Positions 946-20,444 of a stretch of DNA of 20,444 nucleotides are shown here, piece after piece. The stretch lies in NCBI GenBank assembly GCA_020283715.1, contig JAIQCW010000128.1, positions 1-20,444 on the forward strand, given 5' to 3'. The notes beneath the pieces are model-generated. The model was not told the DNA's origin. It worked only from the letters and a program-made list of their open reading frames with translations, and did not search any database. The DNA is from Cytauxzoon felis (Eukaryota > Apicomplexa > Aconoidasida > Piroplasmida > Theileriidae). Made by a program: the position numbers and the translations under genes. Each line of letters starts with the position of its first letter. Within the stretch, counting starts at the first letter, position 1.

Positions 946-1077
946 TACACCTGAGGTTAATCCGCTGTAAGTCGTCTTCAATTGCTGTGGTGGCATTCCT
1001 ATTTACCTCACCCTAAAGAGTATAGCCACTCCCAGAGATCGTTTTCTGGTAATCCACTTCCACTTGATGTCCAATCA
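946..1077 (+). repeat. Dispersed element copy 1 (degenerate)
   Basis: It begins with CACCTGAGGTT and ends with CCACTTCCACTTGATGTCCAATC. Internally it keeps the family's CTATTTACCTC box and a diverged form of the box TAAAGAGTAGAGCCACTCCC followed by GAGATCG. It has many substitutions relative to the other copies and looks old. Confidence 0.65.
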
Positions 1078-1099
1078 CTAATAATATGTAAATTAATTA

Positions 1100-1410
1100 A
1101 ATTAAATACAATAATTATCTTCCTTCAATCATTTACAACTGAAGTTTAATATTATAATAATTTTATAGAAGTGTAATTAGTTATACAAATCTATTACTAT
1201 CTTATATAAGTAGTATACTTTAATTCATGTTAATAGTTATATAGTATGTATATTATAATAATTAATTATATTAATACTTATATATCTTCATACAACTATA
1301 CATCATCCTTCAATTGTATTAATATATTAGTATATATTATATTAGAAGAGAAATCTTCAATTGATATTAATAAAGTAGGGGTAAATAGTGTTTATTATCC
1401 CTATAACCCA
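1100..1410 (-). repeat. Inverted copy of the 5' flank of the cysteine-rich gene
   Basis: The reverse complement of this stretch aligns along its length with 15600-15905, directly upstream of the 844-aa cysteine-rich gene. Shared blocks include GGATAATAAACACTATTTACCC, TATTAATACAATTGAAGGATGAT, TATATAACTATTAACATGA and CTTCA-TTATAAA. Where the coding region would start, a degenerate dispersed element (946-1077) is found instead. It looks like the relic promoter of a second family member. Confidence 0.7.
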
Positions 1411-2229
1411 AGGTTGATGGTGTTTTTTAAATTCACTATATATATATATTTACTAGGAAATATGGTGCTAAAACTCATAAACCTAATAATTGTGGTGATC
1501 ACATATAATACTATACCATATACCATAATACCGTAGTCGACAAATGGTAGGGGGAGGGAAATATAAGAAGCCTCCATGGCTAATGGTGAAAATAATAAAG
1601 AACCTTCGGTGGATGTACTCATATAACTAATGGATAGTCTAGTGATGTGATAATACGAAAGCAAAAGGTAGTACTGATTGAGGAATATAGTTGTCACATA
1701 TGAAGATTATGAATATAAAGTAAATCGATATAAACCTAGGAACTATGGTTATAGAAATGACTACAAGTGATAAAAAGTCCATTATAATCCCCAATCTTCC
1801 ATATGTGTTGGAAATTTCTATCTTTCCAGAGATGATGTTACTGGAAGTATGACTCATGATGAAATGAATATTTACCATCTTCTACTATTAAATCCTCTAC
1901 CATATACACATATTCTCAATTATTTACATCAGGTGGATTGTCTATAGATGATTAAATTAATTAAAGAATAGAATGGCTTTCATCAAATTGGGGTATAATA
2001 GTATGGAGGAATCACTAAGGCCACATCTGGGATACTAGGTGGAAGGACCATAACAATGAAATGTAAAGTAATATCAATATCCAATATGAATTTGTAGTAT
2101 ATTAAGGTTAATTCTACTCAACACATCATGATACATCATCCCTAAATATATAAAATGTGTAAAAATGACACAAGGGATGATGTAGAAATGTAGGATTGTA
2201 AATGCACATTTGAGCAATAATGTAGCATA

Positions 2230-2284
2230 ATCGCAAAAATATCGCAATGTTTACTGTACTATAGTCTCATTTATCGCAACGTTT
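2230..2284 (+). promoter_or_regulatory. Three ATCGCAA motifs upstream of the membrane-protein gene
   Basis: ATCGCAA occurs at 2230, 2241 and 2273, the last two as ATCGCAATGTTT and ATCGCAACGTTT. All lie 70-120 bp before the ATG at 2350. The clustering in an AT-rich background suggests a transcription-factor site, but no known factor is assigned. Confidence 0.3.
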
Positions 2285-2349
2285 GTTTTTTATAATTTTA
2301 AATAGGCTTTAATTATCTGAAGATACGGTTGATATACACATACTTCAAA

Positions 2350-3717
2350 ATGACTGCTAAAAATAATAGTACACCAGGCCTAAAGGAAGTCTCTATGTTC
2401 CTGGTAGGATTCGTTGCAGCATTACCATTGAGGCTGGCATTATCATGTGCCAAATATGCCATTGGTAGATATAATCTTCCGGTTAATAAACTTGGTTTAT
2501 TCATTAACATATGTCACAATCCTATGGAATTAATTGGTCTTGTAGGTATCACAGCGGCAAACATCATTAAGTTAATTGCGGGTAATACGAAGGCTGTTGC
2601 TGCATTATCCGTGGTTTCAAACTGGTTCATGTTCGCCTTCTCAGTAACTACACTCTATGTTTATACATATGGAGGTGATCTAGGCGATCCTAACCTTTAC
2701 ATGTGGACTCTTATAATACATCAATTCGTATTTGGTCTTAATTACATATTCACTATCGGTGCAGAACCGAAGGCTGTAAGTTACTCAAGTGCAGGCTTAC
2801 CACTTTCATCTGTTTTTGTCACTCTTTATCACAATGTATTCCTTTATTATGCAAATAAGTACCTCCTACAGGATGTCGATTACTGGCTTGTATGTGGACA
2901 GATTATGGTGAATATGATCTTAATGTTTATAACCGCGTTACTGTGGACTGCACACTGCGCTATGTGCCATTTTAATGGAAATGGGTGTGAAGATAATCAA
3001 CAATCTTCTAAGGATGAAGAACAAACCAATTTGATGGAGGGATTGAAAGAACCATGGACATGGTCACCTGCTATGATTGTGGTATTCTCCCTAGGGGCAT
3101 TGTACTGCGTATACCCTGGTATAGCACCATTCCAATTAGTAGATCCACAGACCGGATATAAGATTGAATTAATTAACTTGGCAATATATCCAATTCCAGC
3201 TATAGTTGTATGCATTCTGGATCATTATAAAATAGGACCAAGTAATAAATGGAAGGATCACTTCGGGTGGAATGCTTGTTGGATTGCTGAAGCGTATGCT
3301 CTCTTTTGTGTCTATATCTGTTATACAGTCCTCCATTACCCGTACTCATTCTTAGGTAAATTGATAATTGGTAATGCATTTTGGGTTGGATTCATAACTG
3401 TTACATTTGTAACTGCACAAGAAGGCCTTAAAGCAGTGAGCGTTAGTGGAGTTGGTATGCAAGGTGAAAAAGGCAAGGTCAATGGTGATGTTATAACATT
3501 TGTATTTATCATATCACTTGCCATTCTCAACTATACCAGTTTCATGGGTGATGCGTACCTTCAGATCTATAGGAAAGCTGAATGGGATCATTGGCCAACT
3601 GAGGGATACACGAGATATAGGGGCTTCAAATTTTGGTTCAATGCAGCGTCTACTTTGGCTAAGAAAACTGTAATGAACGCATTTAGTGTAGACGTTAGAA
3701 GAGAAATGTTAAAATGA
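2350..3717 (+). CDS. Multi-transmembrane protein (piroplasm mtm/Tpr-like; ENT-like topology)
   Basis: This is a single-exon gene of 455 aa. The start is the first ATG (AAAATGAC context); the frame opens a few codons earlier without another ATG. By eye there are 10-11 hydrophobic helices. Six lie in the N-terminal half, then a hydrophilic acidic loop (roughly residues 208-235, containing NGNGCEDNQQ and SKDEEQ), then about five more. The 6+5 arrangement with a central cytosolic loop is the topology of equilibrative nucleoside transporters, and is also reported for lineage-specific multi-transmembrane families of Babesia and Theileria (mtm, Tpr-related). I cannot tell these apart without a profile search. 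The C-terminus is short and basic. The likely location is the plasma membrane or an internal membrane, and the substrate is unknown. Confidence 0.72.
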   Translation: MTAKNNSTPGLKEVSMFLVGFVAALPLRLALSCAKYAIGRYNLPVNKLGLFINICHNPMELIGLVGITAANIIKLIAGNTKAVAALSVVSNWFMFAFSVTTLYVYTYGGDLGDPNLYMWTLIIHQFVFGLNYIFTIGAEPKAVSYSSAGLPLSSVFVTLYHNVFLYYANKYLLQDVDYWLVCGQIMVNMILMFITALLWTAHCAMCHFNGNGCEDNQQSSKDEEQTNLMEGLKEPWTWSPAMIVVFSLGALYCVYPGIAPFQLVDPQTGYKIELINLAIYPIPAIVVCILDHYKIGPSNKWKDHFGWNACWIAEAYALFCVYICYTVLHYPYSFLGKLIIGNAFWVGFITVTFVTAQEGLKAVSVSGVGMQGEKGKVNGDVITFVFIISLAILNYTSFMGDAYLQIYRKAEWDHWPTEGYTRYRGFKFWFNAASTLAKKTVMNAFSVDVRREMLK

Positions 3718-4237
3718 AGTGGAGTAAAATACACAATGAGTACTCCTGAAATGTTAATAAAATGTAGTTTTAAATTTTAAATCCTATCTTAATGTAGTCC
3801 TTTAAATGCCTTTAGGCATTGTAATTTTAATCTACTTTAATAATTCATTATATGTTATACACTCCACCTCTCCTTCCACTCGATGTCTTTCCACTCGCCG
3901 TGGAAGCTTCTTCTATTTACTTCCCCTTCCAGCTCCTGTAGATCGCTTTCAGGTGTTCCACTTGAGGTTACATCCATACCTCTACCTTCGCCACGATCTC
4001 CGGGAGTGGCTCTACTCTTTAGAGATAGATAATTAAAAGAGGCCACCACGGCGAGTGGAAGAGAAGAGTAGGATTGGACCTCAGGTTGAGAGCCGTATGA
4101 ATTACCTGCAGTTGAGGTAACCTCAGGTGGATTAACTTTTTCTGGTGTATTATAATTTTGTACTAACTTCATGTATATAGACATGAAATATAATGATATA
4201 GAGATTAAGATGTGTGTACACATTTTGTATAGAAAAA
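3718..4237. other. Convergent intergenic region holding an element copy
   Basis: This lies between the 3' ends of the membrane-protein gene (+) and the KH-protein gene (-). Roughly half of it is dispersed element copy 2; the rest is AT-rich 3' flank. Confidence 0.6.
3864..4130 (-). repeat. Dispersed element copy 2
   Basis: It is bounded by CCACCTC on the left and CCTCAGGTGG on the right. Internal inverted arms are 3891-3920 (CCACTCGCCGTGGAAGC...) and 4031-4058 (...CCACCACGGCGAGTGG). The minus strand reads without a stop through the shared peptide words RATPGDRGEG and ELEGEVNR, although this copy is outside any confident gene. Confidence 0.85.
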
Positions 4238-7207
4238 TTATGATAATGCTGGAAAGTTTCCATGATCGTTAGGATCGATATTGATACTAGTAGCTTGTTG
4301 TTGTTGTTGTTCGACATTACGTTGTTTAGTTTTGGTATTTGCATGTTTTCTTATAAATGAGTTTTTACTAGTATATTCTTCATAAATTGATTCATTAGTT
4401 ATATTTAATTTTGTTATATCCTCATCTGATGATATAATCTGACCTATTAAATCTACAGCATTAGATATACTCCTCCTATTACCATGTATCAATAATATAG
4501 TACCACATGTAGATATATTCACAACACCCGATTTATTTATCAAATAACGCATATTCGATCCACCCTTACCTATTATACGACTCATACTCGAACCCGATAC
4601 CTCCAATGATCCATAAAATAAACCAGAAACAATATCCACCAATGAACCATCTACATCCGAGGTCGTCCTGCCGTCTCCACCTGAGGTCCTTCCATCTTTC
4701 CCATTGCATGGAGCTTCTCTATTTACTTCCCCCTCCGCTTCCCTGAGATCAGCTACGGGTTCCACTTGAGGTCCATTAACTACATCACGTTCTTCCGGGT
4801 TAACATTCTCTGTTCCTCCGGGTAGATTTCCTGTTCTTCCGAGTTGAACATCTTCGTTCTTATGGGTTAACATCTTTTGTTCTTCCACATTACCTTCGCC
4901 ACGATCTCCGGGAGTGGCATTACCGTTTACGGGGAGTGAATTGGAGGAGGCCTCCACGGCTAGTGGAACACTGGTTGTAACCTCGGGTGGAGTAATATTG
5001 ATTGGTTGATTAAGTGAGAGTGTAACGATTGATTGGAATATTTTATTGATTTCATTGAGGCAATATTGTGTATTATTGATATTACCTGAGATATGTAATA
5101 TTTTTTTATCATATATTTTGAGATTGACATTGAATTTGATTTCGAGTGTATGTAATAGATATGATTTATTATCATTAAGTAATGTATATTGTAATGGTGT
5201 AATATTTTTTTTAATAAGATTATGATCATTTAATATATTATTAATATAATTAATAGTATTATTAATTTGTTCATCAGTACCATATATAAGTAGATGATCT
5301 TTATAATCTATAATATAAGAACCAATATTATTTTCAATATTATTAATATGTTGTAATATAATATTAATTTTATAATTAATAATATTAAATTTAAATGGTT
5401 GTATATTTTTAGATTTAATTAATTCTAATGCTCTATTATAACCAAAATTTATAAAATTTTTATAACCTACTATATATATTTTATCATTATATTTAATTAT
5501 ACATGTATATTGTGATTTATAACGTTTACGTTGTATATCATTATCTGATAGAAATAATATCTCATCATTTGTTATATTTTTTAACTCTATAAATGTAAAG
5601 TCATTTATTATGTCATCCATTAATTTTATTACCGTAGTCATGGCATTGGAAGCTGAAGCTGAAGCGGAAGCGGAAGTGTTGGATGTGGAAGGGTTGTTGT
5701 TGGAAGTGTTGGATGTGGATTTGTCGTTGGAATGGGAGTTGTCATGAAGGTTGTCATTGTTGCTTCTGCCATTTCCATCATCGCCTCTGCTTCTGTCAAT
5801 AATGTATAAACGTCCTTTATTATTATTAAATTCCAATTTTACATCTACATTATAATCCTCTTCCAATTTACGTATCAATGATTTAAATTTTGTTGATAAT
5901 GCCTTTAGTATTAAATAATTATCTTCTCTTGAATAAATATTTTCATTATCCTCTACTATACATGATCTTTCATTAATATATTCAATTGCATTCTTTACAT
6001 TTATACCTTTACCTATTATATCCAATTGACCGGAATAATAAAATGTTAATACATTAAATCTCTCTTGTATATCCATCAAGTCTTTATATCTTGTAAATGA
6101 CATTTGTATCCTTGATGATGAATCGAGGTCTAGGGATGATAGATATTCTATACACTTTTCAACATCCGTACGCAAACCGTAAATTACCAATAGATGTGAT
6201 GAAGATAGTGACGACGACGTAGGAGTTGCTGAAGAACGAAGTGATGAAGGACGATGTTCTGTATACGCTTCATTCAATGATGTCTGAAAAGGTACAATCT
6301 TCGGACCATCATCCAATGAGGTCTGAAAAGGTCCAATCTTCGTACCTTCATTCAATGATGTCGATAGTCGTTCGATATGTACGGTAAACATATTTTTAAT
6401 ACGTTGTAGATAATTAAATGGATATTGGAAGCGATTTTCTTTATCATAAATCCTAAAATAACCAGTATAAATATCATTAGCATCAATTAATTCTTTATTA
6501 TTCTTCCTTTTATAGTCATTAATAGTATTATAAAGAAATTCGCTTGTAATTGTTGTAGTCTTTACAGGTTGAGATTGTACCTTTTCTATTTTATTCTTCA
6601 ACTTCTTTTTTATATTCAAAATATCTTTACATGTACTACGAAGTTTCATAAGTGATATCTGTATAGATTTAATCCTCTGATATTCACGTAATATCATCAA
6701 TTGATCTTGTAAATATGATATATACATCTCAACCTCTTTAAATGCGACATCACCACCATCCTTTAATTTATCCTTAGATTTCATCTTTGATAATTTATTC
6801 TTTGCATCCTTTATCTTATTTTCTAACTCTAATATACTCATATTCTGATCAGGCTTTATAATATCTATCAATATACCATCTATAGCATCATCTAATTCAG
6901 ATATATACATATTCAATTCATCATCATCTATAGTACTATCCTTTATCATAGATTCATCCAAATCTTTTACAATTATACCACGCTTCTTCAAACGTGATTT
7001 TATACTCGACTCCTTCTTTATACATTCCGATGGTGTTATACGCTTCTCATCCAATAACTTACTAACCTTCTTCTTTAATGAACGACGCTCCGATATACTT
7101 AATACCTTCTGAAAACCATCATCATCTATCACATTACTATCCCTATCTACAATAGGAATATCACCCAAATTCACATTACCATCAACTTCATCATTTATAT
7201 CAGGCAT
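4238..7207 (-). CDS. Vigilin/Scp160-like multi-KH RNA-binding protein
   Basis: This is a single-exon gene of 989 aa, started at the first ATG (7207); the frame upstream of it has no other ATG. The C-terminal part has a clear KH domain with the GxxG loop IIGKGGS near residue 876. Upstream are several degenerate KH-like units that keep the hydrophobic, IxG and helix rhythm but have lost GxxG (for example LKIYDKKILHISG; LLIYGTDEQINNTINYI; GQLDIIGKGINVKNAIEYI). This fits the vigilin/Scp160 type, cytoplasmic RNA- and polysome-binding proteins. The N-terminal 230 residues are charged and helical. Other oddities are a 13-aa tandem repeat (residues about 281-312), a Ser/Asn/Ala run (about 476-522), and about 110 residues (739-850) encoded by a dispersed element in frame. 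The C-terminus ends NFPALS after a glutamine run. It is the most downstream gene of the minus-strand cluster. Confidence 0.75.
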   Translation of the reverse strand: MPDINDEVDGNVNLGDIPIVDRDSNVIDDDGFQKVLSISERRSLKKKVSKLLDEKRITPSECIKKESSIKSRLKKRGIIVKDLDESMIKDSTIDDDELNMYISELDDAIDGILIDIIKPDQNMSILELENKIKDAKNKLSKMKSKDKLKDGGDVAFKEVEMYISYLQDQLMILREYQRIKSIQISLMKLRSTCKDILNIKKKLKNKIEKVQSQPVKTTTITSEFLYNTINDYKRKNNKELIDANDIYTGYFRIYDKENRFQYPFNYLQRIKNMFTVHIERLSTSLNEGTKIGPFQTSLDDGPKIVPFQTSLNEAYTEHRPSSLRSSATPTSSSLSSSHLLVIYGLRTDVEKCIEYLSSLDLDSSSRIQMSFTRYKDLMDIQERFNVLTFYYSGQLDIIGKGINVKNAIEYINERSCIVEDNENIYSREDNYLILKALSTKFKSLIRKLEEDYNVDVKLEFNNNKGRLYIIDRSRGDDGNGRSNNDNLHDNSHSNDKSTSNTSNNNPSTSNTSASASASASNAMTTVIKLMDDIINDFTFIELKNITNDEILFLSDNDIQRKRYKSQYTCIIKYNDKIYIVGYKNFINFGYNRALELIKSKNIQPFKFNIINYKINIILQHINNIENNIGSYIIDYKDHLLIYGTDEQINNTINYINNILNDHNLIKKNITPLQYTLLNDNKSYLLHTLEIKFNVNLKIYDKKILHISGNINNTQYCLNEINKIFQSIVTLSLNQPINITPPEVTTSVPLAVEASSNSLPVNGNATPGDRGEGNVEEQKMLTHKNEDVQLGRTGNLPGGTENVNPEERDVVNGPQVEPVADLREAEGEVNREAPCNGKDGRTSGGDGRTTSDVDGSLVDIVSGLFYGSLEVSGSSMSRIIGKGGSNMRYLINKSGVVNISTCGTILLIHGNRRSISNAVDLIGQIISSDEDITKLNITNESIYEEYTSKNSFIRKHANTKTKQRNVEQQQQQATSINIDPNDHGNFPALS
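4657..4990 (-). repeat. Dispersed element copy 3, within the KH-protein ORF
   Basis: On the minus strand it begins CCACCCGAGGTTAC and ends in GACCTCAGGTGG followed by a second terminal module. The interior has GAGATCGTGGCGAAGG and repeated ACCCGGAAGAAC/ACCCGGAGGAAC units shared with copy 6, then GGACCTCAAGTGGAACCCG. The reading frame of the KH protein passes through all of it without a stop, adding about 110 codons between a degenerate KH unit and the canonical KH domain. Confidence 0.85.
6262..6365 (-). repeat. 13-codon tandem repeat inside the KH-protein gene
   Basis: About two and a half units of 39 bp encode SLNEGTKIGPFQT, SLDDGPKIVPFQT and SLNEAYTEH. It lies in a low-complexity linker near residues 281-312. 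Copy number may vary between strains. Confidence 0.7.
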
Positions 7208-7586
7208 TTTTAGCCACAAAAAACTATAAAGATATAACACATATAAACATTCTAATTTATCCACACAATGTGGTCTGAATTATTTACATTTAAATTCTTA
7301 GCACTAAATCATTAGACAATAATCACTTCAACATACCAATCATAACTACCCCCATCAATACCAATTATATCAACCACCCAGTATAACACAGATCATAGAT
7401 GATGAATGATTATATATAGTTTAATTTATATTTAATATCCTATAATAATTATTATATAACAATAAACACATATACCATAAAAGATGTACGATGATTATAT
7501 ACCCCCTAACAAGTATACCATTAAGGATAAGTACTAGACAATAATTATATACCATTTAACATATATAAATTATATAAATATATTAT
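7208..7586. other. Intergenic spacer between KH protein and RAD23
   Basis: This is AT-rich, with several TATACCATTT-like and ATAATTATATACC-like near repeats around 7450-7560. It must contain the 5' flank of the KH gene and the 3' flank of RAD23. I see no gene, RNA or dispersed element in it. Confidence 0.5.
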
Positions 7587-8986
7587 TCAATCCTCCGCCA
7601 TAAAATCATTAGCATTCTCCAATAAATAATTTGCAGCCAATTCCTCATTCTTATCACAAGCCAAATACGCCTCCAACACAGCAGCACGAGAAAATCCTAA
7701 ACCTTCTAAACGCTCTACACTCTCCATCTCCAATTGAGTCAATGATATCATATTCGGTGGATCACCGCCAGTATAAGGATCCCTATAACCACCTCCATTG
7801 TTTATCAGTTCCATAAACTCATCTTGATGTTCTATTATATTCTAAAAATAATTAAATCATATAATATCCTCCGCCAACCTGTAATAATTCTGGATTATTT
7901 TGGCCAATATTATCCAGCAATTGCTGGAACATCTGCGGATCCGATTGAATGACCTGCCGCAATTGCTCAAACATTGGATGCGATTGTAACGATTGTATCA
8001 CGTCGTCATTATTCTATAGATTTTAAGAGATCTATGAGATCTAAACATACATTTGAATCTTCAACAGTTGGTATATTACCCTAAATGTAATCAAGAAGTA
8101 CTAAAATTTAAAACCAACCATAGATAAAAATTCTACAGCCCTCTCAGGATTATTAAACGCCGCCGTCATCGCCTGCTCCACCAAAGATCTAGGAAATCCC
8201 ATCTCACATATCCTCTTAATATTCTATAGTATAAATTTACAATATATAATTAATACCAGTACAATATCGTAAACTTATAGTCATACACTTTCATCTTCAA
8301 CTTCCCACTCGCTGATCCACATGAGGTCGTATTGCCACTCGCCGTGGAGGCCTTCTCTATTTATCTCCCCCTCCGCTCCCATAGATCGCTTCCAGGTATT
8401 CCACCTGAGGTTACATTATCTTCACGTTCTTCCGGGTTAACATTATACCGAGGATGATCTACGGGAATCCGAGGGGAGCTATTTAGAAGAAGGCTCCACG
8501 CCTAGTGGAAGGAGAGGTGGATTGGACCTCAGGTGGAAAGAGAGTTGGATTGTACATCAGGTTGTAATGAATTATAAACATACTTGTTCTAATTCGGATC
8601 CGGTGAGTAGTTTGGATGTATCTTTGAATTGATCATCATTGGTTATGGATGGTGTTGGTTGTGTTGTATTTTCTATTTTGGGTGTATCTATATTTTCTTT
8701 TTTTTCAATTGTTGTTGTTTCATGCTAAAGATTAGAATAATGATGTAAGAATTACATACGGGTTTGGATGTGATGACGATAATTTTATCCCCGTCTTTTA
8801 TATCTTCATAATTGTTCAAGAGTAATTCTTTTTTTAATATTTTACCAGAATGTATTAATTTTGATGTATTGCTGGCATATTTGGTAATGCTTCTTCTATT
8901 TTTTTCATAAGATCATCAATTGTAGATGATTCTTCAACATCAACTTCTACCTCCACATTTTTTAATGTCTTAACCTTAAGCTTCAT
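7587..8986 (-). CDS. RAD23: UV excision repair / proteasome shuttle protein RAD23 (six exons, frameshift in exon 1)
   Basis: RAD23 binds ubiquitinated cargo and the proteasome and partners XPC/Rad4 in nucleotide excision repair. Exons on the minus strand are 8986-8760, 8724-8584, 8223-8119, 8080-8051, 8013-7879 and 7841-7587. In order the domains are an N-terminal ubiquitin-like domain ([15 protein letters not shown]...), an acidic/threonine linker, UBA1 ([15 protein letters not shown]), the XPC-binding domain ([16 protein letters not shown]), and UBA2 ([19 protein letters not shown]). The product would be about 297 aa, short for the family. Introns are 35, 360, 38, 37 and 37 bp; the 360-bp one carries element copy 4. 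Exon 1 is one base short. At the T run 8859-8862 the frame slips within the ubiquitin-like domain and hits a stop, while the remaining UBL residues continue in the next frame. All other exon phases close. This is either a sequencing indel or a real lesion. Confidence 0.85.
8304..8565 (+). repeat. Dispersed element copy 4, inside RAD23 intron 2
   Basis: It has inverted arms CCACTCGCCGTGGAGGC...CTATTTATCTCCCC (from 8336) and CTATTTAGAAGAAGGC...GCCTAGTGGAAGGAG (to about 8514), followed by GGTGGATTGGACCTCAGGTGG. It lies entirely between the donor (GTATGT, 8583) and the acceptor (ATAG, 8224) of RAD23 intron 2, and accounts for most of that intron's excess length. Confidence 0.85.
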
Positions 8987-9080: not shown

Positions 9081-9613
9081 TTAATTCTCATTATTTTTTA
9101 TATTCTTCTTCTCCTATAATTTACATGAGATGTTTTTTTAAAAAAATATAACCCTCTATTATAATACTTACCAGATATGCTAATTTTGCTGCATCTAAAT
9201 GATCTCTTAATTGGATATATAAATTATCTTTACTATTACCAGATATTTTTGAATCACGATCTATTCTTTCTGTTATCATTTCAATTTTCTTATTTAATAA
9301 TTCTAATTTCTCATCATCTATAAATATAATTATGAATTAGTCGTACTAAAAAAAATTTTTTTTTACCTGTCATTTTACTATAAGTTATCTTTGCTCTATC
9401 AGAATAATTAAATGTCTCTTGAATATCTTCATATCTAGATGCATCTTCAGGTAATAATGAAAATGATTCTTTTAATAATTCTCTAAAATATAAATCACCA
9501 CCTTTTATCTTATGCTTTATACTCTTTGCATCTTCTATAGGATTACCAAGCTCTTTAGATAACATTGGTACATTAATTAATCTGAAGTTATTTATAAATA
9601 TAAGAAACTCCAT
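9081..9613 (-). CDS. Small hypothetical protein (three exons)
   Basis: Exons are 9613-9367, 9317-9172 and 9113-9081, with introns of 49 and 58 bp; phases close and give 141 aa. The start chosen is the ATG at 9613 (MEFLIFINNF). The frame stays open upstream to 9757 through an acidic run and a repeat fragment, but contains no ATG. The protein is hydrophilic and mostly helical, with charged segments (EKLELLNKKIEMITERID) and an aromatic stretch near ELLKESFSLLPEDASRY. I do not recognise a family. An alternative is that these exons are the 3' part of the neighbouring gene (9765-10986). Splicing a GTAAGT donor at 9768 to an AG at 9655-9654 keeps the frame, would remove the repeat fragment, and would give a 385-aa protein. 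Confidence 0.5.
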
Positions 9614-9655
9614 ATCCTCCACATCCACCTCCTCTTCCAATTCTTCTTCTTCTCT

Positions 9656-9724
9656 TTTGCCCCCTTCAGCCTCCCCGAGATCGGCTTCAGGTTCCACTTG
9701 AGGTCCATTAACTACATTCGAGGT
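9656..9724 (-). repeat. Dispersed element copy 5 (fragment)
   Basis: Minus strand: GGACCTCAAGTGGAACC followed by the GCCGATCTCGGGGAGGCTGA block, matching the right-hand part of copies 3 and 10. Only this terminal part remains. It sits between the mS26-like gene and the small hypothetical gene, or inside an intron if they are one gene. Confidence 0.75.
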
Positions 9725-9764
9725 CTCTTCTTCTAGTTCTTCTTCTTCCTCCTCCTCTTAAAAC

Positions 9765-10986
9765 TTACTCGTTCTTTTTAATTTCATCTTCTTTATAATT
9801 GAAACCAGTTTGTAATTTATTAAGCCAATAAATGTTACCAATTTTCTTACTAGATAGTCGACCGAGTTCTAAAGCTTGAGTAACTATAAAATTATAATAT
9901 AAATATAATTATAAAACATTTACCTTTCTTTTCTATACGTAAAGTGTCACGTAATATCTATAAATGTAAACATTAATAAATAAAATAAATTTACCGCCTT
10001 CCTTTTATTCTCCTCATGAATCGATCTTCTAATCTCCTCCTTACGATTATAAGATTCTATTAAATAAAAATGAAATCAAATTAATGAAACGCTGTACATC
10101 GAAGGTTAACCACCTGAGGTCCAATCCTACTCTTCTTCCACTTCCACCCGAGGTCGTCTTGCAGACAGCTCTTCTATTTATCTCCCCTCGGATTCCCGTA
10201 GATCATCCTCGGTATAAAGTATACCCGGAAGAACGTAGATGTTAACCCCTAAGAACAAGAATTCTACCCGGAGGAACAGAAAAACTTCAACCCGGAAGAA
10301 CAGACCTCAGGTGGAATACCCGCAGCTGATCTCAGGGAAGCGAAGGGGGAAGTAAATAGAGAAGCTGTCTGCAAGACGACCTCGGGTGGAAGTGGAAGAA
10401 GAGTAGGATTGGACCTCAAGTGGAGTGTTCATTAGAGTAGTTGTGATTAATTTTTGTGTATTAAGTGTACCTTTTCGTTGTCTAATAAATTGTTTATATT
10501 GTTTTTTTCTTTCTTCTTCTGTGACTTCAGCTAATTTTTGTAGATATTGTGCTCTATAAATCTTTCTTAAATCTCTCATTTGTCTTTCCCACATATAAAG
10601 TTCTGCTAGATAAGGTGTTAGACCTTCTCTTAATTTGGCATGAAGTTGTTGTTGTTTTGCGGCATCACTTAATAAAAAATCTAGACGTCTTTGTAATACT
10701 TCTGGTGATACTTTAGGTACACCTTCTATTGGTTTAATAAATGATTGTATAATTGGTTTTGCGATTGGTATTCTCCTACACATTTTATTATATATATGAA
10801 ATTTCTATACCTTGGCAATGGAACATCTGAAAATAATCTTGCTTTTTCACGTAATCTTACAAATCTTCTTACTGGATTCTCAAATGGTCCAGTCTTGCGA
10901 TGTGGTTTCTCACGCATCTCTGCTCTCTTGAAGAAACCTGGTGGTTTCAAAAATCTTGCTGCATATAATACACGTTTATCTACCAT
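9765..10986 (-). CDS. Basic protein, possibly mitochondrial ribosomal protein mS26-like (five exons)
   Basis: Exons are 10986-10811, 10775-10471, 10056-9995, 9957-9924 and 9883-9765, with introns of 35, 414, 37 and 40 bp. Phases close exactly and give 231 aa ending at TAA 9767-9765. The joins restore continuous helical sequence (FIRQRK joined to ESYNRKEEIRRS). The N-terminus is arginine-rich, like a mitochondrial targeting segment. The middle (MRDLRKIYRAQYLQKLAE) and the end (ALELGRLSSKKIGNIYWL) loosely recall the mS26 family (a coiled charged rod, then a short motif with Asn and Trp), a resemblance judged by eye only. The 414-bp intron holds element copy 6; without splicing, exon 2 would read into the repeat and stop at 10307. 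The stop overlaps a consensus-like GTAAGT, so the gene might instead continue into the downstream exons. Confidence 0.65.
10110..10423. repeat. Dispersed element copy 6 with ~78-bp terminal inverted repeats, in an intron
   Basis: The left arm 10110-10187 starts CCACCTGAGGTCCAATCC; the right arm, about 10345-10423, ends GGATTGGACCTCAAGTGG. I aligned the two arms by eye; they match over about 78 bp with only a few differences, the outer 40 bp with one. The interior has ACCCGGAAGAAC, ACCCGGAGGAAC and AACCCGGAAGAAC units. The whole element lies inside intron 2 of the mS26-like gene. I see no obvious target-site duplication (flanks AAGGTTAA and AGTGTTCA). Confidence 0.9.
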
Positions 10987-12513: not shown

Positions 12514-12897
12514 TATTTATCTACTGATTTAGTTCACTGCCAAAGGCACTATATAAAGTAGGACAGACTTCCAGGGTAAATTACATTAGTCTTACAAAAA
12601 TGTACAAATTTCAAAAAGTTTTAAACATATATTTAGTTGTAGAATCATATATACTCTAATTAGTTGAGGTTTAGTAAGTTAGTCACATCTTGGTTCATGG
12701 AGATGTGTATCTCTACAACACTGTCAAAATGGCCAAAAAACAGGGATCAACTCTTGACATTGTATTGTATTCATCTAGATAATGCTATGTTAATTGTAAG
12801 ATTCCATTGAAGCCTTATAGCACCAATGAGCAGTATCGTCGATAGGGTACGAGATTAGACAGATGATCATCAGTATAGTAATATAAACTAATAGACA
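12514..12897. promoter_or_regulatory. Divergent intergenic region
   Basis: This stretch of 384 bp separates the starts of the nucleoporin-like gene (-) and the secreted-protein gene (+), so it must hold both promoters. It is less AT-extreme than other spacers here. I see no dispersed element, tRNA-like fold or clear shared motif. Confidence 0.5.
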
Positions 12898-13585: not shown

Positions 13586-13589
13586 AAAA

Positions 13590-15191: not shown

Positions 15192-15488
15192 TTATGGTAT
15201 ATATCAAATAATTAATACTCCAAAAATAGACGTTTTAGCATATATATATTTATATTTTAATGACGACTCAGTGAACTTGATTTTCCACAGTACATCTAAT
15301 AATATTACCAAAGATCTCCAAAGTGATACCAATGAGATAGCAACAGAGCCAATAGTATTAAAAGCCAAGCATTAGTTTAAATGACGTATATAGAAGTTAT
15401 TTTTTAATTTTCATGCATACCCCAAAGTGAAAATATTCAGGTGTTGTATACTCATTGAGGTACGATCACAATATTGTACAACTTATCT

Positions 15489-15560
15489 TCGTCCTGCCGT
15501 CAGCTCTTCCAATTACCTATCTCTAAAGAGTAGAGCCACTCCCAGAGATCGTGGCAGAAG
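15489..15560 (+). repeat. Dispersed element copy 7 (fragment)
   Basis: CGTCCTGCCGTCAGCTCTTCC is followed by CTCTAAAGAGTAGAGCCACT and CCCAGAGATCGTGGCAG. It retains two internal boxes of the family but lacks the terminal CCACCTGAGG module. The frame reads LSLKSRATPRDRG, as in other copies. Confidence 0.75.
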
Positions 15561-15599
15561 TATAAGCACAATAAATAGATACTTTGATACCCCAGAAGT

Positions 15600-15905
15600 G
15601 TCGGGATAATAAACACTATTTACCCTATAATATTAATGTCTATTGAAGTTTTCTCCATGACTATAATATATACTACTATATTAATACAATTGAAGGATGA
15701 TTGATGAAAGTGGGAACGTATTGATGTATTAATATAAATAATTTATATAATATATATACTATATAACTATTAACATGATGTGATACTACTATAGTAACTA
15801 TATTATACTTATAATAATACTAATTATATATACTTTTATAAATTATTAAAAAACTATGCTTCAATTATAAACATTCTTCATCATTGAATCAGATTATAAA
15901 ACTTT
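15600..15905 (+). repeat. Duplicated 5' flank (partner of 1100-1410, inverted)
   Basis: This is the second member of the inverted pair described at 1100-1410. Here it leads directly into the ATG at 15916 of the cysteine-rich gene, so it is likely the promoter and 5'UTR block that travels with this gene family. Confidence 0.7.
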
Positions 15906-15915
15906 ATTATTATCA

Positions 15916-18450
15916 ATGCTATCAGATTATATCAATAGTTGTGAGAGAATAAAGAAAGCTGTTGAAGGAGGGAGTGGTAGTAGTCAAGGAGGTAGTGGAG
16001 GTAGTCCCGGTGGAGGTGGAACTAATTCATCTCAACAATCTACTAGTTGTGGAACATCATCAGCACCTTCGAGTACATGTGTAACAACTCCTGCCTCTCA
16101 ATGTAATGCAAATGGTGGTAGAACAAGTAATTGTTCACAGACTTCTGCAGCTCAACCAGCTTCTACATCTCAGAATTGTAACTCAGGGCAACAACAACAA
16201 ACTCAAACTACAGCTAAGAGTAATAACGGATGTGGTTTTAAAAAATTTTGTGAACAAGCGACTAAAAATGCAAGTACATGTAAAGTATTCGGGGAGATTA
16301 AGGACAAGTGTAAATGTGAATGTGATAACATTTGTGTAAATTCAGATCAGATATGTACAAAATTCATCAGTGTAACTATAGAACACTGTGAGAAGGAAGC
16401 TGAGTGTTTAATTATACAATTCAATGAGGATTTATCTCCTGAATTAGTAAATACAATAGTCTTGAGATTCATAGGTCTACAATTATATCTGAGAATAATA
16501 CAGGAATTCTCTTTGTTAAGAGATTATTTTACAAATATTATAAAGAATTTAGAAAAGAATTATAATGCAATTAAATCATGTACGTGTGGAAGTGCTGGAC
16601 AGTCTACTAATAATAATTGTTCTAAGGATAGTAAATGTCTATGTTCCATATTCTATAAATTATTTAAAGCAATTAAGACACTACATAATAGATATTGTAA
16701 GATTATTAATTATATTAGAGGAGAATCTGATGAAGATTTATATAAAGTTATACCATCATTATCATTAACTAGATCTATTATCTTATTAACATCCTATTTC
16801 AATGATTATATCAGATCTGATTATATGGTTGAGGGTAGTAGTTGTGGATGTGGTTATAATGAGTATGTGAAACCATCGTTAATTGGAAGTATAGCTAGTA
16901 TTGCAGCCGAAACAGTATTATGGTTATTCAGTACTGTTACTGAATCTAAATACACAGGGTTAAAGACATGTCCCTGTCATAAATACAGCAGTAAATTAGA
17001 TGATGTGGTGACACTGCTACAAACAGGAATAGAGGACACAGATGATTGTGATGGTATACTCTCTGATGTCATCTTCATGATATCTCCCCTTGTTAAGGAT
17101 AAATGCGTCGACACTAAAACCATGGATAATAATCCATCAACGACTCACAAGGATTCAATTGATCAGCAGTTGAACACAGTTAATCAGCAGAAGAGTACTC
17201 TTAGTACTGTAATTACGGGTATTAATGGAAATTCTAAGTGTGATGGGACGGCTGGCAGTTCTGGTGTAGGGGGGTCACCTAGTTCTGGAGCTGGTTGTAC
17301 AAGTTGTGATTCTCCTTCGAGTGAAAGTCAAACTGCTACTAATTGTAATGGTGATGGAACCATTGCAACAGCATGTGGTCAATATATCAATAACGGAGGT
17401 ACCACTGGTTGTGGTGGTGATAGTAAATGTGAATGCGGATGTAAAGCTTGTACAAGTGGTAGTCCAGGAGAATGCTGTTGTTTCTGTAAGGATACTAAGC
17501 ATGAGGAGTGTGATAATAAGATCAAATCGTGTCTTGAGAGTTTGGTTGAGAAATTGAGCGATAAAGATGTTCAATGTAAAAGTAATGGTGATAATGGTGG
17601 TAATAAGGATTCTTTAATGTGTTATTTGTGCGTTTTAAATTGCAGTATTAAAAAATTACAGTCTGTTTATAATGGCACTGGTTCTAATGGATGTATTTTA
17701 GATGAGACATTGCAGAATTTGCCTAACCATATAAAAACTGTGGTTGGAAAGATATGTGGTACAGAAAATTCTGCTAAGGAATGTTGTGAGAAGTGTAATG
17801 GTAATGGTTGCTCTGAAAATGGAACTTGCTCATGCAACGGTGGTGAATGCTGCAAGGTCAACGATCGCTTCTCCAACTTTACGAAATTTCTATTAGGGAC
17901 GAATTCTTGTTCTACTTCTACTTCTAATAAATGTAAAACTATTGCGAAAACATTGACGGATTTGAATAATACGTTGAACACCTTTATTGGTGAGAATGGT
18001 ACGAGTAATGAAACTCAGTGTAACTGTAATAATGGCGGTGATAATTGTTGCACAAATAAATGTTGTTGCGGGAAACCTGATTGTTCTAAAGATAATGGTA
18101 ACGGATGTAATAGTACTCAACCAATTAAAATATTATCGTGCGTCATAAACTGCGGGTTGAAGGGTATTAAGGAGAGGTCTGAGAAAATTGAGACGCATAT
18201 AAATAAAATAGAAAAATGTTTGACATGTATATGTGAAAAGATGAAAAAACTGGAGGAATATTACTGTAACTTACATAAATGTATATCTGATTTGGGGAAG
18301 TGTGTGAAGGATGAGACGAAATGTTTAGAAGATAAGATATGCAACTTAGCGAAGGCAAAAGAGAATAATCTAAAGACATTTAAGGATGTAATTGATAAGT
18401 CTAGAGATGTACTTTCTGATATTTGTGGATATATAGGGTTTATTCTATAG
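15916..18450 (+). CDS. Cysteine-rich 844-aa protein, candidate variant antigen
   Basis: This is one uninterrupted frame of 844 aa with about 80 cysteines by my count. The N-terminus (MLSDYINSCERIKKAVEGG) is followed by a Gly/Ser linker and a Ser/Thr/Gln stretch. Next are two helical regions (residues about 120-350 and 610-840) with spaced cysteines, separated by dense CxC and CC clusters such as GDSKCECGCKAC, ECCCFC and CCTNKCCC. I see no signal peptide and no convincing transmembrane helix; the most hydrophobic stretch is SLIGSIASIAAETVLWLF. Cysteine-rich domains, Gly/Ser linkers and lack of a signal peptide recall the VESA-type variant antigens of Babesia, but no specific motif proves that. 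A tail exon or an upstream exon could have been missed. The duplicated 5' flank elsewhere suggests a multigene family. Confidence 0.7.
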   Translation: MLSDYINSCERIKKAVEGGSGSSQGGSGGSPGGGGTNSSQQSTSCGTSSAPSSTCVTTPASQCNANGGRTSNCSQTSAAQPASTSQNCNSGQQQQTQTTAKSNNGCGFKKFCEQATKNASTCKVFGEIKDKCKCECDNICVNSDQICTKFISVTIEHCEKEAECLIIQFNEDLSPELVNTIVLRFIGLQLYLRIIQEFSLLRDYFTNIIKNLEKNYNAIKSCTCGSAGQSTNNNCSKDSKCLCSIFYKLFKAIKTLHNRYCKIINYIRGESDEDLYKVIPSLSLTRSIILLTSYFNDYIRSDYMVEGSSCGCGYNEYVKPSLIGSIASIAAETVLWLFSTVTESKYTGLKTCPCHKYSSKLDDVVTLLQTGIEDTDDCDGILSDVIFMISPLVKDKCVDTKTMDNNPSTTHKDSIDQQLNTVNQQKSTLSTVITGINGNSKCDGTAGSSGVGGSPSSGAGCTSCDSPSSESQTATNCNGDGTIATACGQYINNGGTTGCGGDSKCECGCKACTSGSPGECCCFCKDTKHEECDNKIKSCLESLVEKLSDKDVQCKSNGDNGGNKDSLMCYLCVLNCSIKKLQSVYNGTGSNGCILDETLQNLPNHIKTVVGKICGTENSAKECCEKCNGNGCSENGTCSCNGGECCKVNDRFSNFTKFLLGTNSCSTSTSNKCKTIAKTLTDLNNTLNTFIGENGTSNETQCNCNNGGDNCCTNKCCCGKPDCSKDNGNGCNSTQPIKILSCVINCGLKGIKERSEKIETHINKIEKCLTCICEKMKKLEEYYCNLHKCISDLGKCVKDETKCLEDKICNLAKAKENNLKTFKDVIDKSRDVLSDICGYIGFIL

Positions 18451-18660
18451 AATCCTATTCTTATTACTTGTCCCCATATTATGACCCCATATATACCCCA
18501 TAATAAAAATTTATCCTTCCATCTATAAATAACTGAATTCACATATATTTCACATTAATATTAAATTAAATTACCTTATACTACATTATAATTAACTATA
18601 AACTCGACATAACATACACTTTAATCACAATAACTATCCTTAATGAAAATATTGAACGAT
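18451..18660. other. 3' flank of the cysteine-rich gene
   Basis: AT-rich with runs of CCCATATTATGACCCC and CCCATATATACCCC just after the stop. I see no gene. It ends at dispersed element copy 8. Confidence 0.45.
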
Positions 18661-18780
18661 CCACCTGAAGTTCAATCCAACTATATTCGTCCTGCCGTCA
18701 GCATCCACCTGAGGTCTATCCTGCCGTCAGCTCTTCTAATTATTTCCCCCTTCGCTTCCCGTAGATAAGCTTCGGGTAAT
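18661..18780 (+). repeat. Dispersed element copy 8 (left arm of an inverted pair)
   Basis: It contains CCACCTGAAGTTCAATCC, then CCACCTGAGGTCTATCC from 18705, CTGCCGTCAGCTCTTCTAA and CCGTAGATAAGCTTCGGG. The segment 18705-18775 is closely matched, inverted, by 19573-19638. Confidence 0.85.
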
Positions 18781-18789
18781 GTACCCTGT

Positions 18790-19410
18790 GTGCAATAGTG
18801 TTCATTATATACGACGTTTGCTGATCCTCTTGAATCTAAAGGCCTAGAAGGAAGTTCAGGTGAAGAACGAGAAACTGCTGATACTGCTCCTACTTCTCAA
18901 CCTCCTCAACCTATAGACCATAAAGTATGGTTGAGTAAGATCACTATGTTCATTTCAGTGATGCTTTGTATATATGAATATAATAAATTATTATTTCTAT
19001 TCATATAGCTTTCGATATTGCAGATACACAGGATAAACATACGCCTGATTCCAGTGATCAAAATAAAACTTCCATTGATTACGGTACTTTTGATGCTCAA
19101 GGTCAAGAACAGAATAATGCTCATAAAGAACCTCCCACTAAAGGCATTAATCAACTTTTTGAGAAAAGAGAAGTTAATTCATCTTCAAAGGCTGGTAATG
19201 TAACTGGATATGCTGAAGAATCGTCCTCATCTTCATGTCGACTTGTTCTATATATTCCTTCTATTATTTCCCCGGAAGCGGCGACGGATATAACAGTAAT
19301 TCAAATGAACCAAGTGATCTTGGTATTTTTAGGAATCGTTTATATAATTGGTATGATGAACCTGCCTGGAATTGTTTCTGGATAGCAGAAATTTCTCTAC
19401 ATTCACCTCT
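18790..19410 (+). pseudogene. Decayed or fragmentary coding segment between inverted repeats
   Basis: Coding-like blocks run from 18808 (FADPLESKGLEGSSGEERE...PTSQPPQPIDHK), then about 19039-19225 (DKHTPDSSDQNKTSIDYGTF; GQEQNNAHKEPPTKGINQLF), then in another frame about 19274-19385 (GSGDGYNSNSNEPSDLGIF; YNWYDEPAWNCFW). A plausible intron (GTATGG at 18929 to CAG before 19033) joins the first two. No GT/AG pair I tried joins the second to the third in frame, which suggests a frameshift. No initiating ATG is found on the left and the element begins on the right. It resembles a truncated hydrophilic surface-protein gene; the family is not recognised. Confidence 0.4.
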
Positions 19411-19411
19411 A

Positions 19412-19707
19412 CCACTCAACCTCTCCTTCCCACTGCCGTGGAGGCCTCTCCACCTGAGGTCTATCCACTCGCCGTGGTGGCCCTCCTATTTACATATCTC
19501 TAAAGAGTAGAGCCACTCCCGGAGATCGTGGCAGTAGAGAGGTTAGTAATTGGACCTCAAGTGGAACCCGTAGCTGATCTCAGGGAAGCGTAGGGGGAAA
19601 TAATTAGAAGAGCTGACGGCAGGATAGACCTCAGGTGGAGACTCTCTGCAAGAGAAGGAGAGTTGGATTGGACTTAATGTGGAGCTGACGTCAGGACCTC
19701 GAGTGGA
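19412..19707 (+). repeat. Dispersed element copy 9 (right arm of an inverted pair)
   Basis: It contains CCACTCGCCGTGGTGGCC, CTCTAAAGAGTAGAGCCACT with CCCGGAGATCGTGGCAG, GGACCTCAAGTGGAACCCG, and AGAGCTGACGGCAGGATAG with ACCTCAGGTGG to 19638, then a further terminal GGACCTCGAGTGG. In this copy the shared ADLREA frame meets a TAG (at 19590-19592), so it is not open throughout. Confidence 0.85.
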
Positions 19708-19751
19708 GCATATAATGATATATATGGTGTTATAAAATTGAAATATGTGAA

Positions 19752-20444
19752 TTAGAGTGTATTGGCGAATTGTTCGAGTTCTTCGGGTGTGGCATTAGTG
19801 AATCTGGATATAAATCTCCAGCATGCTGATTTAAGTTTATTAGCAATTTGTGCATCACTACATATACCAACAGCATGATTAACTAACTTATTTAATTCCG
19901 GTAATTCATTACGTAAACCTTTTATCATATTATCATCATTCTCTAATGATAAACGAAAATCCGGAAATGCATTCGTCTCCTTCAATATCTTCAATCTCCT
20001 CAAACCATCACGTGCACCCTTTAATACCCACTTTACAGCATGACCATACTCATCCTTATGTAATGCACGACCATGCCTCAACTTATACTCTATATCATCC
20101 TGATCCTTCATTACCATAGTCGCCGTTCCACCCGAGGTCGTCCTGCCGTCAGCTTCTCTATTTACCTCCCCCTCAAGCTCCCGTAGATCGCTCTCGGGTA
20201 GACCACTTCCACTCGAGGTTACATCACTACCCTCACCACGATCTCCGGGAGTGGCTCTACCCCTTGGGGATAACAAATTAGAAGAGCTGTCTGCAAGACC
20301 AATGTTGGAAGCAAGTGGATGACTGGTCGTTCCACTAGACGTCCCACCTGATGTTACAACTACTGTTCCACTAGGCGTGGAGCCTCTTCTATTTAGTTCT
20401 CCCTCCGCTTCCCTGAGATCAGCTGCGGGTTCCACTTGAGGTCC
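19752..20444 (-). CDS. Hypothetical protein, 5' partial, N-terminal part repeat-encoded
   Basis: The frame is open from the right window edge to the stop at 19754-19752 (230 aa visible). The first 105 residues are encoded by element copy 10 (VEPAADLREAEGELNR; RATPGDRGEG; SDLRELEGEVNRE). The remaining 125 residues are a well-formed helical, charged domain starting ATMVMKDQDD, including GHAVKWVLKGARDGLRRL and ELPELNKLVNHAVGICSDA, and ending ATPEELEQFANTL. I do not recognise the family. The helical domain is presumably the native 3' exon. The repeat may be translated or removed as an intron. A minimal alternative start is the ATG of MVMKDQ near 20117. Confidence 0.6.
   Translation of the reverse strand, partial: GPQVEPAADLREAEGELNRRGSTPSGTVVVTSGGTSSGTTSHPLASNIGLADSSSNLLSPRGRATPGDRGEGSDVTSSGSGLPESDLRELEGEVNREADGRTTSGGTATMVMKDQDDIEYKLRHGRALHKDEYGHAVKWVLKGARDGLRRLKILKETNAFPDFRLSLENDDNMIKGLRNELPELNKLVNHAVGICSDAQIANKLKSACWRFISRFTNATPEELEQFANTL
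20128..20444 (-). repeat. Dispersed element copy 10, runs off the window
   Basis: It starts (plus strand) CCACCCGAGGTCGTCCTGCC at 20128, carries the CACGATCTCCGGGAGTGGC box and the CTCCGCTTCCCTGAGATCAG box, and ends at the window edge in TCCACTTGAGGTCC. It is in frame with the partial gene on the minus strand. Confidence 0.85.

Follow-up and report, generated by a model that had tools for sequence, protein, structure and literature searches.

The nuclear genome of Cytauxzoon felis contains thousands of short hairpin-forming repeats, many of which are in-frame within genes

Element copies in the window

The window (the whole 20,444-nucleotide stretch of DNA analyzed) contains a FAINT-domain gene, a KH-domain gene, and other open reading frames (ORFs), together with copies and fragments of a short repeat element (Table 1). 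The host is Cytauxzoon felis, a parasite of cats, in agreement with the piroplasm-type genome proposed in a preliminary description, and element sequence was present at all ten places named there as copies or fragments, in both orientations as claimed. A recurrent-word scan gave 12 element intervals across the window. The terminal motif CCACCTGAGGTCC was found at 22 sites with up to two mismatches, compared with 0.16 on average over 100 shuffles, and the CCACGATCTCCGGGAGTGGC, TCTATTTACCTCCCC, and CCGCTTCCCTGAGATCAGC boxes were found with up to three mismatches at 6, 12, and 4 sites, respectively (0, 0.66, and 0 expected). The interval 18660..18777 matched positions 19566-19683 in inverted orientation (118 nt, 84%). 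Several of the copies fall inside ORFs, and ORF 10307-10804(-) takes its C-terminal residues and its stop codon from the element at 10108..10425.

Table 1. Genes and element copies in the window (strand, in all rows, is that of the element peptide frame)
Feature	Position	Strand	Remarks
Degraded element copy, D+ G+ F- A+	946..1080	+	3' of FAINT-domain gene; A motif at 946 degraded
Element copy, B+ D+ F+ G- B- A- A-	3885..4130	-	Minus strand open within ORF 3855-4268
KH-domain gene, 1013-aa stop-to-stop frame	4238..7279	-	Contains in-frame element
KH-gene element, 336 bp = 112 codons	4657..4992	-	Reads TPPEVTT...ATPGDRGEG...GPQVEPVADLREAEGEVNRE...DGRTT; missing from three Theileria orthologues
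Element copy, A+ B+ D+ A+ D- B- A-	8317..8552	.	Inner boxes degraded
Fragment, E+ A+	9656..9708	-	Within ORF 9314-9757(-); reads GPQVEPEADLGEAEGG
Element, D/E-type arms face to face	10108..10425	.	Inverted arms 78 nt, 94% complementary
Half element, C1+ G+ F-	15489..15558	+	
Half element, A+ C1+ A+ C1+ D+ E+	18660..18777	-	Two stacked outer layers
Complete element, A+ B+ G+ F- A- E- D- C1- A- C1- A-	19435..19708	+	Stacked outer layers
ORF, open at window end	19752..20444	-	N-terminal half consists of two in-frame element copies
Complete element, in-frame	20120..20302	-	Reads IGLADSSSNLLSPRGRATPGDRGEG...ESDLRELEGEVNREADGRTTSGG
Second copy in ORF 19752..20444	20366..20444	-	Truncated by window end

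Dispersal and architecture of the family

Confinement of the copies to the window, which the preliminary description had set against a mobile family, was not observed. In the whole genome, CCACCTGAGGTCC occurred exactly at 1,099 sites and GATCTCCGGGAGTGGC, with up to one mismatch, at 2,671 sites; the reversed controls gave 0 in both cases, and the sites of both boxes were split about equally between the strands. These sites bear out the dispersed family with inverted structure described earlier: the boxes belong to one genome-wide repeat family, of which the C. felis nuclear genome carries several thousand scattered copies. Elements, counted in one contig in full, parts of one other, and the window, made up 14% of the sampled DNA (216 kb), a sample richer in elements than the genome (99 boxes compared with 67 expected), and the share scaled to the whole genome is approximately 10%. 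Half of the interval lengths fell within 97-223 bp. For two window elements, no near-identical long copy was found elsewhere among the candidates scored (40 of 2,826 and 40 of 2,563); the best values over at least 240 bases were 87% and 86%, and shorter pieces of the same elements reached up to 93% and 97% identity.

A search of viral contigs for CCACTCCCGGAGATCGTGG gave 0 matches, and one archaeal contig contains it, about as often as a 19-mer is estimated to occur by chance in 257 billion bases. Searches with the element peptide recovered two proteins, both of them cf76, at E up to 1 in a set of 834 candidates of about 294-934 aa, and none in the class of about 126-402 aa (3,011 candidates). 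The absence of the peptide from Theileria is suggested rather than established by these searches, because they were limited in length class and returned no C. felis protein besides cf76. Literature queries with element sequence strings gave matches for the DNA string only, unrelated by title, and the available records on Cytauxzoon with repeats, palindromes, or transposition contained no description of this family.

Each copy is a quasi-palindrome, short and GC-rich, in which two different arms surround a middle CCTCAGGTGG motif and exchangeable terminal hairpins serve as caps. Arm Y is ...CTAAAG...GCCACTCCCGGAGATCGTGG and arm X is GCTGATCTCAGGGAAGCGGAGGGGGAAGTAAATAGA. The elements form hairpins, with a median fold z of -2.28 for 60 elements versus 0.06 for 60 controls. 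The ends are A, B, C1, or C2 hairpins, which can be stacked and swapped. Both ends could be placed in 53 of the 164 elements; the terminal motif previously described as inverted at both ends was indeed outermost at both in 31 of these, but another hairpin occupied one or both ends in the remaining 22, and CCACCTGAGGTCC was found mid-element too. A recognized hairpin flanked both sides of 77 of 82 cores, and the left and right hairpin flavors assorted independently, with no coupling between them (chi-square p 0.49). The several arrangements reported earlier are not free: of 99 adjacent arm pairs, 85 showed a single order, Y+X-, or its reverse. Non-coinciding boundaries, also regarded as evidence against a mobile family, were found in the variable outer layers but not in the core, the order of which is mostly fixed.

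Base pairs covary in one arm hairpin. Among the 102 ungapped Y arms (out of 111), column pair 10-17 was T-A in 70 and C-G in 29 (98% paired versus 78% shuffled), and column pair 11-16 was C-G in 80 and G-C in 18 (97% versus 68%). The terminal stems also varied with their pairing preserved (GTCT-TGC-AGAC, CTCT-TGC-AGAG, and CCAT-TGC-ATGG). Among 45 of the 291 strong pairs, shared blocks mostly stopped at module joints and terminal hairpins were swapped. A sharp, constant outer border in recent duplicates was not seen in this set, one pair of which was AT-rich, non-element DNA.

Copies read in-frame within genes

Many copies, dozens at least, are in-frame and open within genes and leave the reading frame unbroken. 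The open strand encodes a stereotyped peptide, PPEV...ATPGDRG...ADLREAEGEVNRE, and examples were found in the KH gene, the PARN nuclease domain (twice), CAF-1 p60, and the cf76 antigen. Same-strand coding on both sides was detected for 22 of the 161 elements with both 150-bp flanks available; 20 of these were open with the frame kept, one contained a stop, and one was shifted. The cf76-frame peptide was present in at least 41 other ORFs of at least 400 aa (63 of 3,289 candidates scored). All 13 copies of the in-frame set were open by construction, the set having been picked for openness; arm spacing was divisible by three in 12 of 12, a result only partly independent of that selection. Among the non-coding copies, 20 of 68 were open in the same frame.

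In sequence comparisons, the element reads as an insertion relative to orthologues (KH) or solved structures (PARN and CAF-1) in three genes. The distance between two anchors was 150 residues in the KH protein and 32-33 in three Theileria proteins; it was 178 versus 21 and 212 versus 21 residues in PARN and 375 versus 43 in CAF-1 p60. The anchor on one side was weak in both PARN and CAF-1 p60 (single-stretch E 1.2, 0.032, and 0.018). A Pfam analysis of 18 proteins assigned no family to the element peptide. The CAF1 and Yju2 Pfam matches extend across an element copy.

The cf76 of the assembly is identical to the 723-aa public protein, lies at the published coordinate, and contains two element copies. 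The gene consists of one exon, and the 2172-bp ORF has been amplified full length from cDNA (PMC3748084); therefore, the two copies are not spliced out. In genes other than cf76, the in-gene copies are presumably translated. In-frame reading within conserved genes, which we regard as the most important property of the family, had gone unnoticed in the preliminary description.

Proposed explanations for the family

The repeats are probably one non-autonomous hairpin family resembling the Rickettsia palindromic elements (RPE), the in-frame copies of which are translated and tolerated and which spreads selfishly with the assistance of its hairpins. A copy landing in a gene in the correct orientation and frame would be transcribed, kept in the mRNA, and translated, and the inserted peptide would be tolerated in protein loops, whereas frame-breaking copies would be removed by selection; the scarcity of elements inside ORF proxies (33 of 164) speaks for this reading. 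Spread would proceed at the DNA level by hairpin-assisted copying, either template switching or ectopic gene conversion, and would need no dedicated transposase.

Rickettsia is the best-known source of protein-coding palindromes that are read in-frame; its RPE are described, in the available text of PMC10969869, as palindromic repeats of about 150 bp, many of them in-frame in unrelated genes and encoding a conserved peptide. The C. felis family shares the short palindromic unit and the in-frame insertion of a conserved peptide in unrelated genes, but it resides in a eukaryotic nucleus instead of a bacterium, comprises thousands of copies compared with the 44 cited in the available source for R. 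conorii, and has modular, stackable terminal hairpins. When 7 proteins were scanned against NCBIfam at E up to 10, with HMMER filters that drop weak matches, just two transporter matches were obtained, both in the MFS part of one protein, and no palindromic-element family was matched. The NCBIfam library includes RPE models. The GC clusters and double-hairpin elements of fungal mitochondria are likewise GC-rich nested hairpins scattered in an AT-rich genome; however, they are organellar and mostly outside genes, whereas the C. felis family is nuclear and often in coding frames. PARCELs, which the available text of PMC2996958 describes as coding DNA with dyad symmetry dispersed in microbial genes, eukaryotes included, are similar in that respect, but a PARCEL is a 25-residue tandem amphipathic motif, and the C. 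felis unit exceeds this length and, for the most part, is interspersed and lies outside genes.

The family offers a second system, eukaryotic and nuclear and with copies in the thousands, in which to test how such palindromes spread and are tolerated. The parasite group has been described as almost free of mobile DNA, yet the C. felis genome holds thousands of these repeats. According to the available text of PMC9141347, a survey of 64 apicomplexan genomes, no transposable elements were found in C. felis; the family contradicts this view of Cytauxzoon as lacking interspersed mobile-like DNA, and short, modular, diverged copies may have escaped detection there.

A true MITE family, the inverted ends of which are moved by a transposase encoded elsewhere or since lost, is unlikely. 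Like MITEs, the elements are short and non-autonomous, with inverted ends, many copies, and both orientations, and they had been called MITE-like on first description. However, target-site duplications (lengths 2-6 and 8, offsets up to 3) did not exceed the largest shuffled count in the 53 two-ended elements, in which degraded older outer layers could mask them, and the ends are several interchangeable stacked hairpins and not a single terminal repeat. No match to DDE_3, rve, or Y1_Tnp was found in the genome in a loose first look at these three families, which can miss diverged genes, and the survey of 64 apicomplexan genomes in PMC9141347 reports no class II transposons. A LINE/SINE retroposon served by a reverse transcriptase source in the genome also found no support, since the only RVT_1 locus found in the genome carries Telomerase_RBD and is telomerase. 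That the family moves is our inference; empty alleles or other movement events were not seen. Recent copying may be mostly local, because duplicates lying close together in one ORF (97% over 315 bp and 100% over 116 bp) were among the pairs with the highest similarity in the sample.

A functional protein module is distinctly unlikely. In that view, selection acts on the peptide, for instance as a disordered linker or an antigenic peptide common to several proteins, and its usefulness drives the spread of the DNA. One stereotyped peptide does recur across many ORFs and forms part of the seroreactive antigen cf76, two alleles of which differ mainly around one element copy. The share of synonymous differences in the X arm, at 38% for coding and 44% for non-coding copies, also exceeded the random expectation of 25%, but coding and non-coding copies did not differ in this small sample (Fisher p 0.35 for X and 0.28 for Y), which does not favor protein-level selection, and the Y arm showed no excess (29% and 23%, respectively, versus 29%). 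Moreover, 111 of the 161 copies had no detectable coding on either flank, 33 of 164 elements (20%) lay inside ORF proxies compared with 45% of 8,000 random element-free placements, and pairing of the Y arm was preserved at the cost of amino-acid changes (LSLKS, LSLKG, and LPVNG). All 13 copies of the in-frame set were open by construction, the set having been picked for openness; arm spacing was divisible by three in 12 of 12, a result only partly independent of that selection. Among the non-coding copies, 20 of 68 were open in the same frame.

It is highly unlikely that the hairpins have a non-coding structural role in RNA 3' ends, chromatin, or replication, with the in-gene copies as by-products. 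The covariation described above would fit such a role, as would the enrichment of intergenic copies between convergent genes (38 of 111, 34% versus 23%), their depletion between divergent genes (14 of 111, 13% versus 21%), and the spacing on C9, somewhat more even than random (coefficient of variation 0.69 versus about 1 for random scatter). However, the positional bias is modest and would equally result from selection against promoter insertions, copies are present in conserved genes too, and an Rfam scan of the window at gathering scores gave 0 matches; the even spacing could be caused by merging of close copies together with gene exclusion. Introner-like elements, reported as invasive intronic elements for the dinoflagellate Amoebophrya (PMC7789003), are hardly credible here, as splicing of the copies is contradicted by the cf76 cDNA, for that gene only, and by the open, in-frame state of 20 of the 22 copies flanked by coding sequence, which introns need not have.

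The RPE-like hairpin family favored here can be extended, rather tentatively, to a selfish, transposase-independent palindrome family that would occupy about a tenth of the nuclear genome and, by extrapolation, place one peptide in several hundred proteins. The terminal hairpins would change between isolates and generate in-frame protein variation, and the published length polymorphism of cf76 among isolates would represent gain and loss of element layers. cf76 is a vaccine candidate with two element copies, and antibodies raised to the shared peptide might also recognize many other parasite proteins; such cross-reaction would affect antigen screens and serology. Two of the published cf76 fragment primers lie partly within the repeat.

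Element anatomy and genomic dispersal

The four boxes named in the preliminary description lie well above chance in the window, where a recurrent-word scan delimited 12 element intervals. On one strand, the boxes are ordered as outer A, terminal hairpin, arm Y, middle A reversed, arm X, terminal hairpin reversed, and A reversed (A, TTCCACCTGAGGTC; arm Y, AATTACCTATCTCTAAAGAGTAGAGCCACTCCCGGAGATCGTGGC; arm X, GCTGATCTCAGGGAAGCGGAGGGGGAAGTAAATAGA), and the terminal hairpin occurs in the flavours B, C1, C2, or variants of these. The family is dispersed in the genome, with 553 forward and 546 reverse exact CCACCTGAGGTCC sites, and 1,356 forward and 1,315 reverse GATCTCCGGGAGTGGC sites with at most one mismatch; the reversed-pattern controls gave 0 in both cases.

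Elements were counted in 215,868 bases, comprising the whole of contig C9, 50 kb of contig C4, and the window, and the 164 intervals found made up 14.2% of this sample. The sample is element-rich with respect to the genome (99 boxes observed, 67 expected), and extrapolation by box density yielded approximately 4,400 elements, or 9.6% of genome length; the pieces outside C9 alone gave 9.9% of bases. The GC content was 51% within elements and 29.5% outside them. Element density reached 16% of bases in C9 against the 9.9% of the other pieces read, and elements may be unevenly distributed along the chromosomes.

Of 236 arms found, 48 were alone. The 99 neighbouring arm pairs were arranged as Y+X- (45), its reverse (40), or otherwise (14). 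A recognised hairpin was present on both sides of 77 of the 82 cores, and the left and right flavours were independent, with no coupling detected among these cores (p 0.49). Outer layers were stacked two deep in some elements. Among the strong pairs, of which 45 of 291 were inspected, near-identical cores often carried differing terminal hairpins, and the ends of shared blocks mostly coincided with module joints. The median core-arm identity was 0.84, indicating that the copies are diverse.

Conservation and folding of the hairpins

The hairpins of the element are maintained. The Y-arm stem C(T/C)(C/G)-TAAA-(G/C)(A/G)G covaried in the 102 ungapped of 111 Y arms; one pair was T-A in 70 and C-G in 29, and the next was C-G in 80 and G-C in 18. 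These positions were 97-98% paired, versus 68-78% with one column shuffled, a comparison that leaves shared descent in and in which most covariation comes from a few alleles. The alleles also differ in peptide (LSLKS, LSLKG, and LPVNG); since the amino acids vary with the stem alleles, it is the pairing and not the peptide that is kept at that place. The terminal hairpins likewise showed differing stems on one loop. Folded as DNA, two window elements gave z scores of -17.2 and -4.6. The median was -2.28 for 60 sampled elements (33 below -2) versus 0.06 for 60 controls (6 below -2).

In-frame copies in genes

Several elements of the window are contained in long open frames. Peptides resembling GPQVEPxADLREAEGEVNRE and/or ATPGDRGEG were found in four minus-strand ORFs of the window, and ORF 10307-10804 takes its C-terminal tail and stop codon from the element at 10108-10425.

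Genes and element-bearing reading frames of the window
Feature	Position	Strand	Basis
FAINT (DUF529) domain protein, cut by window start	2-862	+	Pfam
471-aa hydrophobic, transporter-like ORF	2302-3717	+	without Pfam match
ORF with element peptide	3855-4268	-	stop-to-stop ORF
KH-gene frame, 1013 aa	4238-7279	-	stop-to-stop ORF holding element peptide
ORF with element peptide	9314-9757	-	stop-to-stop ORF
Tubulin/FtsZ-GTPase protein, internal short EENSS/KREIKE repeats at about 14380-14540	13590-15191	-	Pfam, ORF reading
859-aa cysteine-rich ORF, Gly/Ser-rich low-complexity stretches	15871-18450	+	without Pfam match above cut-off
ORF with element peptide	19752-20444	-	stop-to-stop ORF

Of the 164 elements, 37 lay inside an ORF (minimum 100 aa), 47 were in contact with one, and 80 were clear of any. 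A hexamer coding score was applied to the 150-bp flanks of 161 elements, leaving out 3 near ends. No flank was coding in 111 and one in 27; both were coding in the same frame in 20 with the element open and in 1 with an internal stop, on the same strand but shifted in 1, and on opposite strands in 1. The arms of the open set lay in sense versus antisense orientation at 16 to 1 for X and 14 to 1 for Y. Arm spacing was divisible by three in 12/12 of this set versus 25/57 copies without a coding flank, an agreement that is only partly independent because the set was selected for openness; the whole-element sense frame was open in 20 of 68 non-coding copies. Elements were under-represented in ORF proxies (20% vs 45%). 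When the 20 cases of the strict set and the 37 of the loose set are extrapolated by box density, roughly 500 to 1,000 in-gene insertions would be expected genome-wide. The middle between the arms was longer in genes: it spanned 12 to 198 bases in 12 in-gene copies and mostly 34-54 bases in 57 non-coding ones (Mann-Whitney p 0.0008). A NLPGGTKNVNPEEQ-type stretch was frequent in the middles of in-gene copies.

Comparison with related proteins indicates that the copies in three genes are insertions. In the KH gene, 150 residues separate two anchors, versus 33, 33, and 32 in its Theileria relatives (two from T. orientalis, one from T. annulata; identity 31-33%), and the element is 112 codons long. 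In PARN, the element-bearing stretches are 178 and 212 residues, and each corresponds to 21 residues of solved PARN. The whole-sequence E values of the two alignments are 6e-9 and 3e-13, although in both of them the second stretch is weak (E 1.2 and 0.032), and the Pfam CAF1 nuclease match spans both copies (residues 45-466, profile 5-210; residues 3-303, profile 204-320). In CAF-1 p60, a stretch of 375 residues corresponds to 43 in 7y5k, and the anchor on one side is weak (E 0.018). Further element-bearing ORFs match kinesin, MFS, LCCL, gamma-tubulin complex, FAINT, and Yju2-like proteins.

Among 834 candidates at E up to 1, an element-bearing protein stretch of C9 matched only the C. felis surface antigen cf76, as two proteins (clusters of 1 and 4 sequences). 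The cf76 of this genome starts at contig base 6540, in line with the reported contig00195:6540-8711 (PMC6310948), and is identical to the 723-aa form of the sequenced isolate; most isolates have 706 aa (PMC3748084). The published C. felis genome is thus the most probable source of the window. The cf76 protein contains two element copies, the first at residues about 179-262 and the second at about 583-656. The gene is a single exon, and cDNA amplification yielded its 2172-bp ORF (PMC3748084); both copies therefore remain in the mRNA. The two forms differ in 61 columns, all in residues 119-298 (10 at 119-163, 47 at 174-273, which is copy 1, and 4 at 287-298), with no difference elsewhere, copy 2 included; copy 1 of the longer form seems to carry an additional stacked outer layer. 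In copy 2 of the genome's cf76, the C1-A terminal layer is doubled at a spacing of 33 bp, and we read the 30-bp tandem repeat doubled in 10/11 samples (PMC3748084) as this layer. Two cf76 fragment primers lie partly inside element boxes (PMC3748084 Table 1); therefore, part of the primer sequence recurs genome-wide, which bears on PCR specificity for cf76.

Mode of spread and related elements

The identity as MITEs proposed in the preliminary description was not borne out by the tests made, as no target-site duplication was found and three transposase-related families, Y1_Tnp, DDE_3, and rve, had no match in the genome. According to the Mobilome of Apicomplexa survey (PMC9141347), C. felis has no transposable elements, and MITE candidates were dropped as likely false positives. 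PARCEL identity was also rejected. No description of the family was found in the literature searched, nor in the parts of the main texts of PMC3748084 and PMC6310948 consulted. Rickettsia palindromic elements, as described in PMC10969869, work alike; however, the C. felis family resides in a eukaryotic nucleus, is far more numerous, and is modular.

A single reverse transcriptase locus was found in the genome, and it carries a telomerase RNA-binding domain. For two window elements, with 40 candidates scored for each, identity to the best long relative was 87% (246 bases) and 86% (268 bases), and the most alike sample pairs include local duplicates in one ORF (97% over 315 bp and 100% over 116 bp). 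We infer that a hairpin-based copying mechanism is favoured, in which elements would spread and be reshuffled at the DNA level through template switching or ectopic gene conversion at their hairpins, and gene-breaking copies would be removed by selection.

Apart from the elements, the 859-aa cysteine-rich ORF possibly represents a parasite surface or secreted protein family.
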